Below, in pieces: positions 7,125-17,766 of a DNA stretch of 64,000 bases. Position 1 is the stretch's first letter; each line of letters opens with the position of its first letter. Source of the stretch: Leptospirillum sp. (GTDB lineage Bacteria; Nitrospirota; Leptospirillia; Leptospirillales; Leptospirillaceae); NCBI GenBank assembly GCA_027323445.1, contig DAHWBS010000003.1, positions 1 to 64,000 on the forward strand. Reading direction: 5' to 3'. The notes under the pieces were generated by a model. It was not told the origin of the DNA and searched no databases. It worked only from the letters and a program-made list of their open reading frames with translations. A program made the position numbers and the translations under genes.

Positions 7125-7980
7125 TCCCGATACGTCCTCCCTTCCCGATGGGTCTGATGTGAGTGATCAGGTCTTTCCCGGTACGGAAGGGATGGATGTT
7201 CTTTTTCTGGGGACGGGAGCTTCTTCCGGAGTTCCCGTTATCGGTTGTTCCTGTCCTGTCTGTCTCTCTTCCAACAAGAAAAATCATCGGACCCGCTCTT
7301 CTATCATGGTTCATCATTCCGGAAAAAATCTTTTGATCGATACGGCTCCAGATCTCCGCTATCAATCCTTGAAAAATGGAATTATGACCATTGACGGAGT
7401 GATCTTTACCCATCCTCATGCCGATCACGTACTGGGACTGGACGAATTAAGAATATTTAATTACATCCAGAAACGGGAAATCCCGGTTTATGCGGATTCC
7501 TACACACTATCCCGGATACAGATGATGTTTCCGTATGCTTTTTCCGAGGCAAATAGGGGCGGGCTCTCAAGGCCGAAGCTGATTCCCTACGAAATAACTG
7601 GTTCCACAGATATTCTGGGTATGAAGGTCATTTCTTTTCCTGTTTATCACGGGCCAGTGATGAACCATGCCGTAAGGATCAATGATCTGGTGTACCTGAC
7701 CGATTGCAAGGGAATTCCTGACGAGTCATGGGAAGTTCTGTATGGCGTAGAGACATTGATTGTCGGTGCCGTGAAGTATGAGCCCCATGAATCCCATTTT
7801 GGAATTCATGAGGCGCTTGAACTGATCGACCGATTGAAGCCACGAAGAGCGTTTATTACCCACCTCTCTCATTCCATTGAGCATGAAGAGTTGTCAGAGA
7901 TGTTACCACCGTCGGTTTTTGTTGCCTACGATGGCCTCCGCATCAGAACCGGGGTCTCACTGGGCGACAGGGACATCTAG
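7096..7980 (+). CDS. MBL-fold metallohydrolase (PhnP-like)
   Basis: MDVLFLGTGASSGVPVIGCSCPVC and the metal-binding motif THPHADHVLGLDELR. An alternative start at 7192 (MDVLFLG) fits the domain better. Confidence 0.85.
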   Translation: MSASLPSFPDPDTSSLPDGSDVSDQVFPGTEGMDVLFLGTGASSGVPVIGCSCPVCLSSNKKNHRTRSSIMVHHSGKNLLIDTAPDLRYQSLKNGIMTIDGVIFTHPHADHVLGLDELRIFNYIQKREIPVYADSYTLSRIQMMFPYAFSEANRGGLSRPKLIPYEITGSTDILGMKVISFPVYHGPVMNHAVRINDLVYLTDCKGIPDESWEVLYGVETLIVGAVKYEPHESHFGIHEALELIDRLKPRRAFITHLSHSIEHEELSEMLPPSVFVAYDGLRIRTGVSLGDRDI

Positions 7981-10401
7981 TCCAGAGAATGCACTGATGA
8001 GTCGCTCTGCCAACGGAACGACATCCCCAACGTCTTTCCCGTAACCATCTGCCCTGATTTCCGTCGAAAACTTTGGCGTGACAACCGCTCCTCCGACCAT
8101 AACCTTGTAAGGAAGATTCTTTTCCCGAATGGTTTCGATTGCAATTTTCATCTGCATCATGGTGGTGGTCATCAATGCGCTTAAAGCAATGATTTGTGCC
8201 TGATGTTTTTCAGCCGCAGCAAGGATTTCATCAAGTGGAACATTTCGACCAAGATCAATAACAGAAAAACCAAAGTTTCTGAGCATCAGGATGCAGATAT
8301 TTTTTCCGATATCGTGGATATCTCCTTTCACTGTTGCAAAGATTACACATCCCTTGGGCTCGACGGGGCCGTCGGCCTCCAGATGGGGCTGGAGAACTTC
8401 GACTCCTTTTTTCATTGCGTCCGCTCCGGCTATCAGATGCGGGATAAACTTGACTCTTTGCCCAAAAAGATCTCCTAGATGGCGTATCGCAGGCGTCATG
8501 ATATCGAGAAATATTGTGAAAGCGGAGAGACCCTCGTCAAGCCCTTTTTGGCAAAGAGCCGCTATTCCGTCTCTTTCTCCTTCGAGAATGGCCTGTCGAA
8601 TGGCCTCTGAGGTCGTTTTTGGGGCGGTCTCTTTCGATGTAGCAGATTGATTGGCTGAAGCTGGCGTCCAGGCTTCTGCCTTGTTCAGGTAGATGCGGCA
8701 GTCCGGATCTCGCCGTGCGAATAGGGATGATGCGGCAACGGTTTGATGAAGTACCTGATCGTAAGGATCGCAAATCGCTGCATCAAGGCCTGCGCCGATA
8801 GCCATCGAGAGAAAGTTGTTATGGACAATCTTTCTGGCTGGAAGTCCGAATGAGACATTGGAGAGTCCCAGTATTGTCGGCAGTCGAAGTTCTTTTTTGA
8901 TGAGGGAAATGGTATCGAGTGTCTGTTTTGCGGCTTCCTGAACGGCGCTGACAGTCAAGGCCAGTGTGTCGAAGATCAGATCCCGGGGCTTAACTCCGAG
9001 CTCTTCTGCCCGTCTGAGGATCTTTTCTGCATTTTTCATGCGTTCTGCGGCTGTTTCAGGGATGTTGTCACCGGAGACGAGGGCGATGACGGCTGCGCCG
9101 TATTTTCGAATGAGAGGCAAGACCTCCTCGAGACGCTCATCCTCGGCATTGATGGAGTTGACAAGGGCTCTTCCGGGATAAAGCTTCAGGCCGGCTTCAA
9201 GGGCTGATGCGTAGGATGAGTCGATGACCAGCGGCAACGAAACCACATTTTGAATCGCGGTGATCGCTTTGGCCATCATCTCCGCCTCATTGACGAGGGG
9301 CACCCCGACATTGACGTCGAGTGCGCCGGCCCCTGCTTCGGCCTCTTTTCTGGCTTCCGCCACGATCAGGTCGACTTGCCCGTTTGCGATCGCTTCCGAA
9401 AATATCTTTTTGCCTGTGGGGTTGATTTTTTCTCCGACGATAAGAAAGGGAACTCCCTCTCCGATCAGGGTCATGCTGGTTCTGGAAGAGATCTTCAGAA
9501 GGGAAGGTGTTGGTCTTGAGATGGGGGCGGAGCCCTTGACTGTTTTGGCGAGGATCTTTATGTATTCGGGAGTTGTTCCACAGCATCCGCCAATAATATT
9601 GGCACCGGCTTCAACGAATGACGGGGCAAATCTGGCAACCTCTTCTGCTCCGGTGAGATAGAGAGTTTCTCCGTTTCGGTGAACGGGAAGCCCTGCGTTT
9701 GGTTCTACGGCTATGAACGTATCGGTTGTTTGGCCAAGTCTTGAGACAACGGGAACCATGGCCTCCGGTCCGACGGAGCAGTTAAGTCCCATGATGTCGA
9801 CACCAAAACCTTCCAGAACACTGGCTGCCGTTTCGGGGTCAGATCCGGAATCAGTAATGCCGTCCATATTGAATGTCATGAGGGCCATGATCGGAATTCG
9901 GCCATTGATTGCCTCACGGACGCCGATAAGGGCAGCTCTCATCTCCTGAATGTCAAACATTGTTTCGATGGCGATCAGATCGGCTCCGGCCTCCAGAAGA
10001 AGCTTTGCCTGCTCATAAAAAATTGCGATTGCATCATCGAACGGGAGATCTCCGAACGGGGCAATTGTTGTCCCGGATGGTCCGATATCACCGGCGACGT
10101 AGGCTTTCCCCCTGGAGGCTCTTTTTGCCAGTTCGACCGCATGGAAATTGATCTCCCGGATGCGATCCTGCGCGTTGTATTCTGAAAGCCTGAGTCTTGA
10201 GGCTCCAAATGTATTTGTCAAAATGATATCTGATCCGGCATTGACATATTCGGTGTGAACAGCCTGAATTTCATGGGGCTTTTCGATATTCCAGAGATCA
10301 GGGGCATAACCTGCCGGGAGTCCTCTGGATTGAAGGAGCGCTCCCATTGATCCGTCCAGAAGAAGCACTTCGTATTTCAAACGCTCAAGCAGGGGCTTCA
10401 C
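7957..10401 (-). CDS. metH: Methionine synthase lacking the C-terminal activation domain (Hcy-binding + pterin-binding + cobalamin-binding)
   Basis: LLDGSMGALLQSRGL, zinc-ligand motif GGCCGTTPEYI, pterin-binding LIVGEKINPTGKK, B12-binding GDIHDIGKNI. 814 aa, ends after the B12 domain. Confidence 0.9.
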   Translation of the reverse strand: MKPLLERLKYEVLLLDGSMGALLQSRGLPAGYAPDLWNIEKPHEIQAVHTEYVNAGSDIILTNTFGASRLRLSEYNAQDRIREINFHAVELAKRASRGKAYVAGDIGPSGTTIAPFGDLPFDDAIAIFYEQAKLLLEAGADLIAIETMFDIQEMRAALIGVREAINGRIPIMALMTFNMDGITDSGSDPETAASVLEGFGVDIMGLNCSVGPEAMVPVVSRLGQTTDTFIAVEPNAGLPVHRNGETLYLTGAEEVARFAPSFVEAGANIIGGCCGTTPEYIKILAKTVKGSAPISRPTPSLLKISSRTSMTLIGEGVPFLIVGEKINPTGKKIFSEAIANGQVDLIVAEARKEAEAGAGALDVNVGVPLVNEAEMMAKAITAIQNVVSLPLVIDSSYASALEAGLKLYPGRALVNSINAEDERLEEVLPLIRKYGAAVIALVSGDNIPETAAERMKNAEKILRRAEELGVKPRDLIFDTLALTVSAVQEAAKQTLDTISLIKKELRLPTILGLSNVSFGLPARKIVHNNFLSMAIGAGLDAAICDPYDQVLHQTVAASSLFARRDPDCRIYLNKAEAWTPASANQSATSKETAPKTTSEAIRQAILEGERDGIAALCQKGLDEGLSAFTIFLDIMTPAIRHLGDLFGQRVKFIPHLIAGADAMKKGVEVLQPHLEADGPVEPKGCVIFATVKGDIHDIGKNICILMLRNFGFSVIDLGRNVPLDEILAAAEKHQAQIIALSALMTTTMMQMKIAIETIREKNLPYKVMVGGAVVTPKFSTEIRADGYGKDVGDVVPLAERLISAFSGLDVPVAQ

Positions 10402-11093
10402 TGTTCTTCGTTCTCGCTTTCCGGCTCATTGTTCAGTTTTTGTCCCTCAATGATCCTTTCCCATCCGATGACAGCAGAAACGGAAAGTCTGGGGGACATG
10501 ATGAAAGATTCGTTCAGGGAAATTCCAATTTTATTTGCCTGTGTGAGTTCCATGACCTCAGTCTGGGTGGATAGGGGCCAGTCTCCATAACCAACTCCAA
10601 ATCGGAACGTTTTTTTATATCCGAAACGGAGAATTTCTTTTTCAATTGCGTGGTCGATGATGATTCCCATATAGTCGGCCATCCATGCGCCTACCCGCTC
10701 CAGAAAATAGGAATACGCTGGTTCGCTGGCGGCAAGTGCATCGACCCGGTCTTCAACCTGCGGACCGATCGTTGCGACAAGGAGCGTTGCATAGTCACAG
10801 TTTTTAAGCAGTTTAACCATCTTTTCGCCAACAAACAATGTGTTTGTTTCGCGTGTAAGAACTTTCCTGTCCTCGATCCCGCTGATCGAAAGAGTCCGGA
10901 AGACTCCCATGCCATGAATCAGGCGGTATCCTTCATCGATCGCTTTTTTGATCTGGGATGCGAGTCCGGGTTCATCGAGATCCTTGAGAAAGGACTTTCT
11001 GGGAATTCTCATCTCGCGGAGGATCTGGCGTTCCTCAATCTGAAAAGGAATATTGTTGAAAAACACCGGTGCCCCAAGCCGCATGCTTGGCAT
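10398..11093 (-). CDS. Stand-alone vitamin B12-dependent methionine synthase activation domain protein
   Basis: GVGYGDWPLSTQTEVMELTQANKIGISLNESFIMSPRLSVSAVIGW resembles the AdoMet-binding activation domain. 4-bp overlap with the start of metH. Confidence 0.8.
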   Translation of the reverse strand: MPSMRLGAPVFFNNIPFQIEERQILREMRIPRKSFLKDLDEPGLASQIKKAIDEGYRLIHGMGVFRTLSISGIEDRKVLTRETNTLFVGEKMVKLLKNCDYATLLVATIGPQVEDRVDALAASEPAYSYFLERVGAWMADYMGIIIDHAIEKEILRFGYKKTFRFGVGYGDWPLSTQTEVMELTQANKIGISLNESFIMSPRLSVSAVIGWERIIEGQKLNNEPESENEEQ

Positions 11094-11221: not shown

Positions 11222-12643
<1,422 letters not shown>

Positions 12644-12811: not shown

Positions 12812-15800
12812 TTAAGCAGTACTTGCATGCTCGGGAATCGGTTGGGCATGTGCGTGGGAAATGATGTCGATTTTGTTGCCACTCCAGAACAGGGTGATCT
12901 CCTCGGATGTCCCGTGCGAGACGATCTTTTCTTCTAGTTTGTGAAGAACAGGAAGCATGAGATTTTGCGTTATGATTCTTGTCTTGGAAAAATCAGGATG
13001 TTTTTGGGCGACATGATTCAATAGGCCATCGGTAAGTTCAAGATCTGTGGAGATGGTCATGTTCCCCTTTTTCCCTTCGAGGAAGGACCTTAAAATACGA
13101 TTGATTTCGAATTCGATGACATTTCGGAGCTCGTTTTCTGTATAGGGAACGAACGGAATAATCCGGTCAAGAAGCGAGAGGAACGGTGTCTGGAAAACAG
13201 GGAGGTATGCAAGCCGCCTGTCATTTTTTTGAACAATCCTTGCCAGCTCGGTTGCCCTGTCATCGACATCAAGCGCCTCAATTTCCTGAGGGGAAAAAAG
13301 AGTGGTTGCCATGACAATCGTCAGGCCAGGAAGAGGGATCTCTTGCCTTTGCCAGTGAAGGGCACCTGTCCTGAGCAGTTCTTCTATCGGCGTCCAGATC
13401 GATGGATGAGCACGTTCAATATTATCAAGGTAGATCAATTGGTTCGGATTTTCTTTCAAAAGGTCCCACAAGCCCTCGGGAACATTGACTGAGGCGCGGT
13501 CAAGGACAGGTTTTCGAATTAATTGCTCCGAATAATAAAGCTCTTCATAAAGACTCATGTCCCGGTAAATAAAGCTTTTGGGGTTCTTGTAGAGAGATTC
13601 GGAGATGGCTTGGGCCATCGTTTTCTTTCCGGTCTGATTGGGTCCAATAAAGAAGAAACTTCCAAGCAATTTCGAGTTGCCTGTTCGAATCTTCATCTTT
13701 GAGCTGTCAAGTACAGAGAGGATCTCTTCTTGGGCTTCTTCCCTCCCAAAATAGCCGGGAATCAACGTTGGTGGAAGTTGGGGAAGATTGATCTGAATGT
13801 TTGAAAGCTCATGGAGTTCTTCAACGACTTCTTTTTTGTTCTCCGGATGCTTTTCCTTCTGGATAATGGGTTCTTTGAAAAACTGGCTGAGGTCGACTTC
13901 CTCCAATGGAGTTCCATCGAGTATCTGGGCCAGGGCATGTTCTTCGATTTGACCGATGAGTTCTCTTTGAAGTTCATTGATGTCAATCACTTTTGTGAGT
14001 TTTCTGAGAATCATCGGGTCGATACTGGAAATCTGGGGATTACTGCCGACAAACCAGTATTGTTTGTCCTGAAGGACTTGGGTCAGTTCAATGACTTTCT
14101 GGTTATAAATTTCACCATGGTAGCCAAAGTTCGATAACTGTACCCTGGGAAAGAGTAGTTCTATGGGATCGATATACAGGATAGCGGGACGCTTTTTTCT
14201 GGATTGTATAATAAAATTTCTCATCGCGGCGAGACTGTTTCTGGAGAGTTCTTTCTGGAGAAGGGCATTGAAGCTGAAGAGTTCTCGCTCAGCCAAAAGC
14301 TGAATGATCTGCATCCTGAGAATAGGGTCCGGTCCGACAATGATGATCGGCTCCCTTGATCTTTTTTTATTCTGGAGAGCCACTTCAACCGCTTTTTCGA
14401 TCAGAGTCAAGCGGATTTTTTCAGGGGTCAACATTGCTCGTATGGCTTCCATCGGTCCAATGGTGGGATCCTGGATTCCCTGTTTCTTTTTACGGATAGA
14501 GACATCGAGATCCAGTTGTCTCAGAGACCGCTTGAGGTCTCTTGCAGTGTTGATGGCGCTTTGAACGATTTCATCAATGATTTCGATACTGAAGCCATCC
14601 ATCATTTCGCCGAGCTTTTTAAGGTCGTATCCGTTGACCATTTCTTCCGATATTAATGGGATATCTCCCGAAGTTGCCTCTTTTTTTCTTGCTTCAATTA
14701 ACAGTGTCCTTTTTAAAATGCTGGACCTGCTTAATGAGTCAGGTAGAGGTACTTCGATGACCCAAGTCATCAGGGGGGATGTTTTAAAATCTTCGGGGAT
14801 CGCTGTCAGGGAAGTGGCAGTGGCTATAACCAGCGTGTTTTTCATATGAAGAATTTGTTCAAGGACCCATCTGATGGATTCCAGCGGTGGCGGAAGTGCT
14901 CCGTCCGATGTTCCCAGAATCTCTTCGTAGTCCGTAATGAGAAGAAGTGTTGGCTGGAGTGGTTTAATTCTTCTGAAAAAACGCTGAAGCTGGTCTTTCA
15001 GAATATGTTTTTCCAGCAGGTTGAAACTTGAAATCTTGATTTCGATCAAGGCTCTTCCGGACTCACCTGCAAATGAACGGATAATGGTGTTTCTTCCCGC
15101 CGGAGTTCCCCCCCAGAGGAGAATCCCATTGTGCTCTGCCCGGAATAACCCCAGATGGTTGATGAAGTCCGAATAGGCTTTCATCATGGAGATCTTTAGC
15201 TCCTGATTTCCCTGAAATGTGTTGAAGTTTTCTTCAGGAACGAGTTTTCTGTTGTTTCCGCCCTGTACGACTGTGATCCCTCCCAGAAGAATTCCGGTGA
15301 GGATGGCAAAGGTCAAGGCCGAAATGCACCACCCTGTTCCCACACCAAAGGACGTTATTGAGGCAACCGTTGCGTAGGGTTTTAGAAAGGCTCCTATCAC
15401 CAGAAAAAACCCACCGGTGAAGATCGATGTTGTCCAGAAAGCAAAAGCACCAGGGGGAAGGTGCAGAATGTTTTGTTGGGTTGTGATTTCCCCGCTTGGA
15501 AGCTGCTGGGGGATCGTTGATGGAATCATCAGGAAAAACAGGATGGAAACAAAAATTGCTCCCCCTGTAATCCAGAGTCCCCAAGCCAGAGTTGACTGGA
15601 TACTTGAAAAGTGAACTCCTATCAGGATCAGGATCGAGGCAATGATGCCCCACTCAAGGAAAAATGAAGTGGGAGGGGGAGGAGTATCTCCTGGTCTTTT
15701 CTTTTTTGAGCGACTTTGGAGAGGTTTCGCATAGTTTGTGCTGATGATCATGATGGCTGTGATAAAAGTCAGAATGACAAGCCCTAGAGCAAGTGTTGCA

Positions 15801-15904
15801 AGGAGGGGGTAATCCTCAAAAAGGGGGTCGATGTATTTTCTCAGGATGGTTCCGAGACTGACAATGAGCAGTCCTGAGCCAACGAGAAGAAATTTGATGA
15901 ACAT
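12812..15904 (-). CDS. Large membrane-anchored triple AAA+/Clp-like protein with degenerate ATPase motifs
   Basis: About six hydrophobic segments in the first ~225 aa; three P-loop-like modules (GGTPAGRNT..LLLITDYEE; IIIVGPDPILRM..ILYIDPIE; FFIGPNQTGKKT..LIYLDNIERAHP). Starts 2 bp after the uvrC stop. Confidence 0.75.
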   Translation of the reverse strand: MFIKFLLVGSGLLIVSLGTILRKYIDPLFEDYPLLATLALGLVILTFITAIMIISTNYAKPLQSRSKKKRPGDTPPPPTSFFLEWGIIASILILIGVHFSSIQSTLAWGLWITGGAIFVSILFFLMIPSTIPQQLPSGEITTQQNILHLPPGAFAFWTTSIFTGGFFLVIGAFLKPYATVASITSFGVGTGWCISALTFAILTGILLGGITVVQGGNNRKLVPEENFNTFQGNQELKISMMKAYSDFINHLGLFRAEHNGILLWGGTPAGRNTIIRSFAGESGRALIEIKISSFNLLEKHILKDQLQRFFRRIKPLQPTLLLITDYEEILGTSDGALPPPLESIRWVLEQILHMKNTLVIATATSLTAIPEDFKTSPLMTWVIEVPLPDSLSRSSILKRTLLIEARKKEATSGDIPLISEEMVNGYDLKKLGEMMDGFSIEIIDEIVQSAINTARDLKRSLRQLDLDVSIRKKKQGIQDPTIGPMEAIRAMLTPEKIRLTLIEKAVEVALQNKKRSREPIIIVGPDPILRMQIIQLLAERELFSFNALLQKELSRNSLAAMRNFIIQSRKKRPAILYIDPIELLFPRVQLSNFGYHGEIYNQKVIELTQVLQDKQYWFVGSNPQISSIDPMILRKLTKVIDINELQRELIGQIEEHALAQILDGTPLEEVDLSQFFKEPIIQKEKHPENKKEVVEELHELSNIQINLPQLPPTLIPGYFGREEAQEEILSVLDSSKMKIRTGNSKLLGSFFFIGPNQTGKKTMAQAISESLYKNPKSFIYRDMSLYEELYYSEQLIRKPVLDRASVNVPEGLWDLLKENPNQLIYLDNIERAHPSIWTPIEELLRTGALHWQRQEIPLPGLTIVMATTLFSPQEIEALDVDDRATELARIVQKNDRRLAYLPVFQTPFLSLLDRIIPFVPYTENELRNVIEFEINRILRSFLEGKKGNMTISTDLELTDGLLNHVAQKHPDFSKTRIITQNLMLPVLHKLEEKIVSHGTSEEITLFWSGNKIDIISHAHAQPIPEHASTA

Positions 15905-15906
15905 GG

Positions 15907-17766
15907 TCAGGGGTTTCCAAGCTCAAGAATCGCTTGCGCCACATTTTTTGAGACACCGGCAACACGCATGATTTCCTCCACTGGAGCGGCCATGATCGCA
16001 TTGAATGAGTGGAACTCTTTCAGTAACTTCTTTTCACGTTCAGGCCCGATTCCGGGAATTTTGAGGAGTCTGGACTCTCTCAGAATGTTTTCCCTGAGGG
16101 ATCGATGGTATGTAATGGCAAATCGGTGGGCTTCATCTCTCATATGAACAAGGATATGAGTTGCCTTGCTATGGGGTGGAAGAATAACCGGGTTTTCCAT
16201 CCCGGGGATGAAAATGCGTTCGAGCTTCCCTGTTCTGAAGCGTTCTTTTGCAATAGAAACAACCCGTCGGGAGACAGGGAGTATTGACATTTTTTCCAGT
16301 TTTTCGATACAGGCACCAAGTTGTCCCGGCCCACCATCTATCACCAGAAGGTCCGGAAGAGGATTGTCTTTGAATTGACGTTCCATCACATGTGCAAGCA
16401 TTTTGAAGTCATCCTGTCCTTTTTCCAGCTGGATCCTGAATTTTCTGTACCCGGAGCGTTCCGGCTTCCCGTCCCGGAAGGTAACGTACGAGGCAACGGG
16501 AAAAGCATCCCCTATATTGGATATGTCAACACAAGCCATCAGTGATGGTGGTGCTTCAAGTTCCAGAATTTCTGCGAGTTCAGAAAGCGCTTCCTTGAAA
16601 GCCAGTTTCTGTTTTTTTCGTTCAATAAGTGCTTCAAGTCCATTTTTGATAGAGAGATCCAGAAGCGTTTTTCTGTCTCCTCGAAGTGGGTGGTGGATTC
16701 TGACCTTCCCACCTTTCTTTTCGGTGAGCCAGCGGAGACTCATGAGTTCATCTTCAGGAATGGGGCTTCCAATGAGTATCTCCTCAGGAATTGCCGAGAG
16801 ATCTTTTCCATAATATTGATCAAAGAATGCCCCAAGAAGTTCAGAGTCAAGAGCTTCTTCTCCATTTTTTATCTCGATTTCCCTTTTTCCACTAATGCTT
16901 CCTCCCCGAAGCTGAAGAATCTCAACGAGTACAAATGGGGCGTCCCTCACGATTGCGACGACATCGACAGAGTGGGGAATATCAAATGATATTCCCTGCT
17001 TTTCCTGGATCATGGAAACGTTCATGATTCGGTCCCGGACTTTTGCAGCTTCCTCAAATCGCAGACTCCTGGCAAGAGTAGTCATTTCCTCGTGGAGGTT
17101 TTTTAGAAGATCATCATTTTTTCCTTCAAGAAACAGACGGACTTCATTGGCAATTTTTCGGTAGTCTGAACTGGAAACAAGGCCCGCACAGGGGCCTAGA
17201 CATCGCTGTATCTGGTACTCGACGCACGGCCTTTCGGTCGATCCATCAAGGGGGATTTCACAGGAGGCCAGAGGGAAAGTTCTTGTTACGAGCTTTAATG
17301 TGTCCTTAAGGGCTCCAGGCGATGTGAATGGACCAAAGTAAAGTGAACCATCGCTCTGGATCCTTCTCACGACAGATAGTCTTGGGAAGGGTTCCTGCCA
17401 TGTAAATTTCAAAAGAGGGTATGTTTTATCGTCTCTCAATAATACATTGTATTTCGGGCGGTGTTTTTTGATGAGACTGTTTTCGAGAATAAGTGCGTCG
17501 ACCTCGGTTTGCGTCACGATGGTTTCGATATTTCGAATTTTTGTTACCATCATGGTAATTCGATTTCCGCGATCTGTTCGCGATGTAAAGTAGGATCTTA
17601 TCCGGTCACGAAGATTACGGGATTTTCCGACATAAAGGATATGTCCATCTGCGTCTTTCATGATGTAGACCCCGGGTTCGCATGGGGCCATTCGTATTCG
17701 TTCCCGAATCTCCGCTGAAAAAGAGTTTTCCGAGTCAGGATTTGTTATCTCAGTCATTTCATCCAT
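15907..17766 (-). CDS. uvrC: Excinuclease ABC subunit UvrC
   Basis: GIY-YIG (PGVYIMKDADGHILYVGKSRNLRDRIRSYF), UVR motif, DISNIGD...VASYV, C-terminal HhH. Confidence 0.97.
   Translation of the reverse strand: MDEMTEITNPDSENSFSAEIRERIRMAPCEPGVYIMKDADGHILYVGKSRNLRDRIRSYFTSRTDRGNRITMMVTKIRNIETIVTQTEVDALILENSLIKKHRPKYNVLLRDDKTYPLLKFTWQEPFPRLSVVRRIQSDGSLYFGPFTSPGALKDTLKLVTRTFPLASCEIPLDGSTERPCVEYQIQRCLGPCAGLVSSSDYRKIANEVRLFLEGKNDDLLKNLHEEMTTLARSLRFEEAAKVRDRIMNVSMIQEKQGISFDIPHSVDVVAIVRDAPFVLVEILQLRGGSISGKREIEIKNGEEALDSELLGAFFDQYYGKDLSAIPEEILIGSPIPEDELMSLRWLTEKKGGKVRIHHPLRGDRKTLLDLSIKNGLEALIERKKQKLAFKEALSELAEILELEAPPSLMACVDISNIGDAFPVASYVTFRDGKPERSGYRKFRIQLEKGQDDFKMLAHVMERQFKDNPLPDLLVIDGGPGQLGACIEKLEKMSILPVSRRVVSIAKERFRTGKLERIFIPGMENPVILPPHSKATHILVHMRDEAHRFAITYHRSLRENILRESRLLKIPGIGPEREKKLLKEFHSFNAIMAAPVEEIMRVAGVSKNVAQAILELGNP

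Follow-up and report, generated by a model that had tools for sequence, protein, structure and literature searches.

A putative membrane-anchored scaffold with three degenerate AAA+ modules, encoded behind uvrC in one bacterial family

Introduction

A motor function is the usual expectation for AAA+ proteins, and the inactive AAA+ modules that are known usually neighbour active ones. Pseudo-AAA+ modules and scaffolds, as a kind, are already known. In chloroplast FtsHi proteins the protease has been lost but the AAA+ domain is intact (PMC8197885). In EccC, a degenerate ATPase domain termed DUF lies beside the transmembrane helices, binds no ATP and is still needed for secretion; its Arg227, in the Walker-A region, contacts an Asp (PMC11154593).

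Here we describe a gene found in the window, the 64,000-nucleotide stretch of DNA that was analysed, whose product combines a membrane domain with three AAA+-derived modules. Our preferred reading, to which we give a probability of roughly 0.6, is a family-specific, membrane-anchored pseudo-AAA+ scaffold or adaptor of the inner membrane that works without ATP hydrolysis.

Architecture of the protein

The gene is an uninterrupted open reading frame of 1,030 codons on the minus strand, and the plus-strand frame over the same positions is riddled with stops. From the N to the C terminus, the protein is laid out as six hydrophobic helices, a pair of AAA modules of Cdc48/FtsH type and a final module of ClpB-D2 type:

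12812–15904, minus strand: whole gene, six-TM triple pseudo-AAA+ protein, 1,030 amino acids (open reading frame, orthologues, dN/dS)
15230–15904, minus strand: N-terminal membrane domain, residues 1–225, six hydrophobic helices (hydropathy, charge, conserved profile)
14480–15229, minus strand: module 1, Cdc48/FtsH-type AAA with lid, residues 226–475 (Pfam AAA, 1.8e-12; PDB p97, 1e-25)
15089–15112, minus strand: module 1 degenerate Walker A, G-G-T-P-A-G-R-N, residues 265–272, Lys replaced by Arg271 (alignment)
14930–14947, minus strand: module 1 degenerate Walker B, L-L-L-I-T-D, residues 320–325, Asp replaced by Thr324 and Glu by Asp325 (alignment)
13865–14467, minus strand: module 2, Cdc48-type AAA core, residues 480–680, lid reduced or absent, pore-loop region shortened (profile against PDB, 3e-11)
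14312–14335, minus strand: module 2 degenerate Walker A, G-P-D-P-I-L-R-M, residues 524–531, Lys replaced by Arg530 in 21/21 (alignment)
14159–14182, minus strand: module 2 degenerate Walker B, I-L-Y-I-D-P-I-E, residues 575–582, Glu replaced by Pro580 in 21/21 (alignment)
12905–13756, minus strand: module 3, ClpB-D2-type AAA+, residues 717–1000 (PDB ClpB D2 match)
13622–13645, minus strand: module 3 P-loop, G-P-N-Q-T-G-K-K, residues 754–761, Lys kept, Ser/Thr lost (alignment)
13421–13438, minus strand: module 3 Walker B, L-I-Y-L-D-N, residues 823–828, Glu replaced by Asn828 in 21/21 (alignment)

Hydropathy above 1.6 marks six segments (residues 3–21, 36–54, 81–99, 109–127, 156–174 and 194–212) and none beyond residue 212, in line with the original observation of about six hydrophobic segments within the first ~225 residues. 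Hydropathy and charge together suggest an N-in/C-in topology, in which the Lys/Arg-rich loop 55–80 would be cytoplasmic and hence both termini as well. A profile search of the membrane domain against the PDB found no relative. On the single sequence, Pfam assigns AAA to residues 261–380 (1.8e-12) and AAA_2 to residues 747–877 (4.2e-12). Module 2 is missed by the best Pfam stretch in the single sequence; a profile built from 18 orthologues matches p97/VCP-like ATPases at 3e-11, in both of their modules, so that the three consecutive AAA+ modules proposed earlier are all recovered. AlphaFold models, each made from a two-sequence alignment, have a pLDDT of 30 for the full protein and 34 for module 3, too low to be informative.

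Degenerate Walker motifs in all three modules

Module 1 was aligned with p97, with two proteins of its own genome, FtsH and the ARC-like ATPase, and with a canonical AAA protein from the phylum. It had been labelled FtsH-like; the AAA type holds, but the closest solved relative is p97 and not FtsH (profile against PDB, 1e-25). Its Walker A follows the pattern G-x4-G-R-[T/N/...], with Arg at the Lys position in 18 of 20 orthologues, Gln or Cys in the rest, and the canonical Lys in none of the 20 sequences. The substitutions first read here, Lys to Asn in Walker A and Glu to Tyr in Walker B, are both displaced by one residue: the Lys position is Arg271, with Asn272 at the Ser/Thr position, and the catalytic Glu (0/20) is replaced by Asp in 7 sequences and Asn in 13, with the invariant Tyr326 sitting one residue past the Walker-B pair. 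The Walker-B Asp is lost in addition to the changes listed originally, its position holding E/T/P/V/D across orthologues, mostly Glu, Thr or Pro; the pair is Thr324-Asp325 in the window protein and Glu-Asn in the main sister genus. That seven sequences, including the window's, keep an acidic Asp at the Glu position counts against reading this site as dead.

The second module is the most constrained of the four parts of the protein, with 17.8% invariant columns, and its degeneracy is as originally described. In Walker A, Arg530 is present in 21/21 sequences and the canonical Lys in 0/21, a hydrophobic residue replaces the last Gly, and there is no Ser/Thr. The Walker B reads Asp579-Pro580-x-Glu582 in every sequence (21/21), and the catalytic Glu is found in none of them.

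Just past this Walker B, residues 585–609 (window 14078–14152) form the most constrained stretch of the entire protein, with the pattern F-P-[RK]-V-Q-L-S-x-[FY]-x-Y-H-G-E-[IL]-Y-N-Q-K-V-x-E-x-x-Q. We regard it as a candidate partner-binding surface.

Module 3 matches ClpB D2 in the PDB at 8e-18 with the single sequence and at 1.5e-25 with a profile. Its assignment as a degenerate ClpB-D2-like module stands for Walker B, where Asp827-Asn828 is invariant (21/21) and the catalytic Glu absent (0/21). It needs amending for the P-loop, in which Gly-Lys is retained in 20/21 sequences and the lost residue is the following Ser/Thr, never present and replaced by K/R/L/I/M. Because Gly-Lys and the Walker-B Asp are retained, module 3 might still bind nucleotide.

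Taken together, the Walker A consensus GxxxxGK[S/T] is absent from every module in all orthologues, modules 1 and 2 lacking the Lys and module 3 the Ser/Thr. Three of the five replaced catalytic positions are invariant (Arg530, Pro580 and Asn828), a statistic that is weak alone. The translated FtsH, Lon, ClpX, ClpB, RuvB and ARC-like proteins of the same genome have intact motifs. Read at the level of sequence, loss of ATP hydrolysis is strongly implied for all three modules, and nucleotide binding has probably been lost from modules 1 and 2. By analogy, the Walker-A Arg in modules 1 and 2 may form a salt bridge with the acidic Walker-B residue, locking the site shut; the Arg530–Asp579 pair of module 2 could act like Arg227 and its Asp in EccC.

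Loss of arginine fingers, sensors and pore loops

Alignment with FtsH, ARC and ClpB from this genome or related ones reveals finger, sensor and canonical pore-loop losses that extend the original list. Module 1 has neither SRH Arg finger and no sensor-1 Asn. Of the two SRH Arg residues, module 2 retains only R634 (21/21), which might work at the site of a partner; module 3 has neither the Arg finger nor the sensor-2 GAR of ClpB. The pore-loop positions (FVG in FtsH, GYVG in ClpB) are substituted in modules 1 and 3 and fall inside a deletion in module 2. The absence of Arg fingers and canonical pore loops makes a threading motor unlikely, and the protein as a whole would be unlikely to act as a motor. 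The combination of no active sites, nearly no fingers and no canonical pore loops indicates a structural role.

Module 3 could still be more than structural. It might bind ATP or ADP without hydrolysing it and change conformation, with modules 1 and 2 serving as structural parts of a nucleotide-gated switch. The retained P-loop Gly-Lys and Walker-B Asp favour this, as does the Asn in place of Glu, which can be likened to the substitutions of engineered hydrolysis-dead AAA+ traps. Yet the Mg-coordinating Ser/Thr is never present, and the Arg finger and sensor-2 GAR are missing too, which leaves such a switch rather unlikely.

A different use of the same surfaces would be as a pseudo-subunit or membrane docking platform, the modules pairing with active rings (FtsH, ClpB or the ARC-type proteasome ATPase) and recruiting or regulating them. 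The modules resemble these very families, all three of which the genome encodes with intact motifs; module 2 retains Arg634; and the heteromeric FtsHi/FtsH12 complex of chloroplasts shows that AAA+ assemblies can include inactive members (PMC8197885). Against this, ftsH, clpB and arc were not seen linked to the gene in the neighbourhoods examined, the tandem three-module layout mismatches single-ring partners, and the FtsHi precedents retain intact AAA+ domains. We consider docking of this kind possible but unlikely.

Two further observations concern AAA+ proteins encoded by this genome. On contigs C77 and C21 are two closely similar full-domain Lon proteases (L003 and L004), which could stem from gene duplication or from the assembly of two variants. 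Contig C21 also encodes an ARC/Mpa-like proteasomal ATPase (L002) with intact AAA motifs, which suggests a bacterial proteasome in this lineage.

Distribution and selection

In a search of 61 genomes, orthologues, either full-length or split by the assembly, were found in 21/21 genomes of one family, probably Leptospirillaceae, and one of them lies in a single-contig genome of 2.56 Mb. Outside the family, the same search returned almost only ClpB/ClpC-type matches to module 3. Profiles of module 2 and of the membrane domain were each searched against 395 genomes of the phylum; each search returned exactly the 21 family members plus one weak match, and neither found the architecture in the ~370 other genomes. 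The weak module-2 match (G031) was rejected as a homologue, being an AAA protein with intact motifs and a different architecture, and the weak membrane-domain match (G217), a 77-residue frame containing a stop, was taken as chance. A single-protein scan of genome contigs gave one close relative only (L039); the restriction to one family is drawn from the profile searches within the phylum, as the patterns of this broader scan were not the conserved motifs. Searches of plasmid and phage proteins gave only partial matches, below 60% identity and of ClpA/ClpB/TssH type where annotated.

In one family genome (G004), the orthologue is split at contig ends (contigs C44, C47, C48 and C69), and its middle part is covered twice, by two small contigs. 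These duplicates are probably assembly bubbles from strain variants.

Orthologues share 84% identity within the genus and 33–42% across genera. Pairwise dN/dS is 0.06–0.08 over the gene and similar in each module, and the modules are under strong purifying selection. At such values the degeneracy is neither sequencing error nor decay. Like substitutions in 20 other genomes, a single-contig one among them, a dN/dS of ~0.07 and intact copies without stops rule out a decaying gene or sequencing artefact. The non-canonical residues are kept across the family, and among the 20–21 aligned sequences no homologue has the canonical catalytic set.

Strong selection on the modules is also what one would expect of an active ATPase that uses unorthodox chemistry in at least one of them, an alternative raised originally as a 'very unusual ATPase'. 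No module has both the Walker-A Lys-Ser/Thr and the Walker-B Glu, however, and the trans-acting Arg fingers are absent from two of the three. With the catalytic set missing family-wide, this suggestion finds no support, and we hold it to be extremely improbable.

The junction with uvrC

The gene lies between uvrC and thiC, neighbours named from reading their translations:

15907–17766, minus strand: uvrC, directly upstream, gap of 2 nucleotides (translation reading, junction survey)
11222–12616, minus strand: thiC, downstream (translation reading)

As originally noted, the gene starts 2 nucleotides past the uvrC TGA. In 19/19 orthologues whose start is intact the junction is tight, the spacing being +2, −4 or −1 nucleotides; closeness to uvrC was thus maintained even as the precise geometry shifted between three forms. 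The two genes are presumably co-transcribed and translationally coupled. Downstream, the genes vary, with thiC-metH in four genera and unrelated genes in the large sister genus. Upstream, the order phoH-ybeY-ftsY-uvrC is likewise conserved, and part of the linkage to uvrC may therefore be plain inheritance. In other genomes of the phylum, what follows uvrC is unrelated in sequence.

Further downstream (window 7957–11093, minus strand), methionine synthase is apparently split into an 814-residue MetH-like protein and, directly upstream of it, a separate 231-residue activation-domain-like protein, an arrangement shared with other genera of the family.

A functional link to UvrC is a possibility. 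In its most specific form, the protein would be a membrane anchor for nucleotide excision repair (NER), synthesised in step with the repair endonuclease UvrC and tethering UvrC or UvrBC–DNA complexes to the inner membrane. The junction persists in three geometries despite the change of downstream genes between genera, and in E. coli NER proteins are reported to be drawn to the inner membranes in response to damage (Lin, Kovalsky and Grossman 1997, listed among the references of PMC5007444), which makes a UvrC anchor thinkable. However, the UvrC of the family looks ordinary compared with that of other families: its longest specific insertion is 5 residues, variable and near the N terminus, where a new interface might have been marked by a sizeable conserved one. 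The wider conservation of phoH-ybeY-ftsY-uvrC again allows for inherited linkage, and other bacteria run NER without such a protein. An anchor dedicated to NER is thus very unlikely.

A putative scaffold at the inner membrane

The preferred reading, a pseudo-AAA+ scaffold, would work as follows. The six helices would anchor the protein in the inner membrane with both ends in the cytoplasm, into which the three AAA+-derived modules would extend, without ATP hydrolysis. The modules would act most likely as rigid interaction surfaces, possibly oligomeric, and hold a partner complex at the membrane. Scaffold and UvrC are probably made by coupled translation, uvrC being the sole gene with a tight conserved junction. 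A bolder version strikes us as quite unlikely: a family-wide organiser in the form of an ATP-free ring or cage, built wholly of retired AAA+ motors, that ties UvrC, or some different complex for DNA or proteostasis, to the inner membrane.

The original description as a membrane pseudo-AAA+ scaffold is borne out as the best-supported reading by the conserved substitutions and the joint loss of catalytic, finger and pore features, with the scaffold role itself deduced from sequence. The gene is present in every sampled genome of the family, whose members are probable acid-mine iron oxidisers, and lies directly behind uvrC, so that its loss should give a testable phenotype.

Comparison with known systems

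The closest structures to modules 1 and 2 are of p97 type, and like Cdc48/p97 (VCP) and VAT-like proteins the present protein has two consecutive AAA modules, the first with the GF lid helix pattern. It differs in having no active site, pore loops or p97 N domain, and in the six TM helices before and the ClpB-type module after the pair. Module 3 shares with ClpB/Hsp104 D2 (AAA_2) a profile match of 1.5e-25 and the stretch Y/F-L-D-x-I-E-x-A-H-P, but has lost the catalytic Glu (to Asn), the P-loop Ser/Thr, the Arg finger, the pore loop and sensor 2. The ClpB N domain, D1 and middle domain are all absent from the protein, and the full-length ClpB model TIGR03346 scores 54.5 bits, below its cut-off of 1232.

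FtsH/FtsHi provides a parallel, an AAA protein anchored in the membrane and conserved despite the loss of catalysis. Here, in contrast to FtsHi, it is the ATPase that has been lost, there is no protease domain (a Pfam scan of 18 members found no M41), and there are six TM helices and three modules. EccC/EssC resembles the protein in its N-terminal TM region followed by tandem ATPase modules, some of them degenerate. The EccC modules, however, are of FtsK/HerA type with an active D1, whereas those described here are of Cdc48/ClpB AAA+ type, none is canonical, and the Pfam scan of the 18 members gave no match to FtsK/SpoIIIE. As for anti-phage defence, PADLOC gave no significant match (best 0.006), PADLOC and PHROGs models matched well only to the ClpB-type part, and the neighbourhood is housekeeping.

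The whole protein corresponds to no family in scans with Pfam, NCBIfam, PADLOC or PHROGs, nor in the literature searched. Within these searches the candidate 'undescribed system' has no described counterpart for its full architecture, and 'system' is too strong a word for one protein with the uvrC pairing as its sole association. Within the databases and literature searched, the all-inactive, three-module, two-subfamily, membrane-anchored arrangement in one bacterial family appears undescribed, and such a protein would offer a clear example of a motor fold put to purely architectural use.
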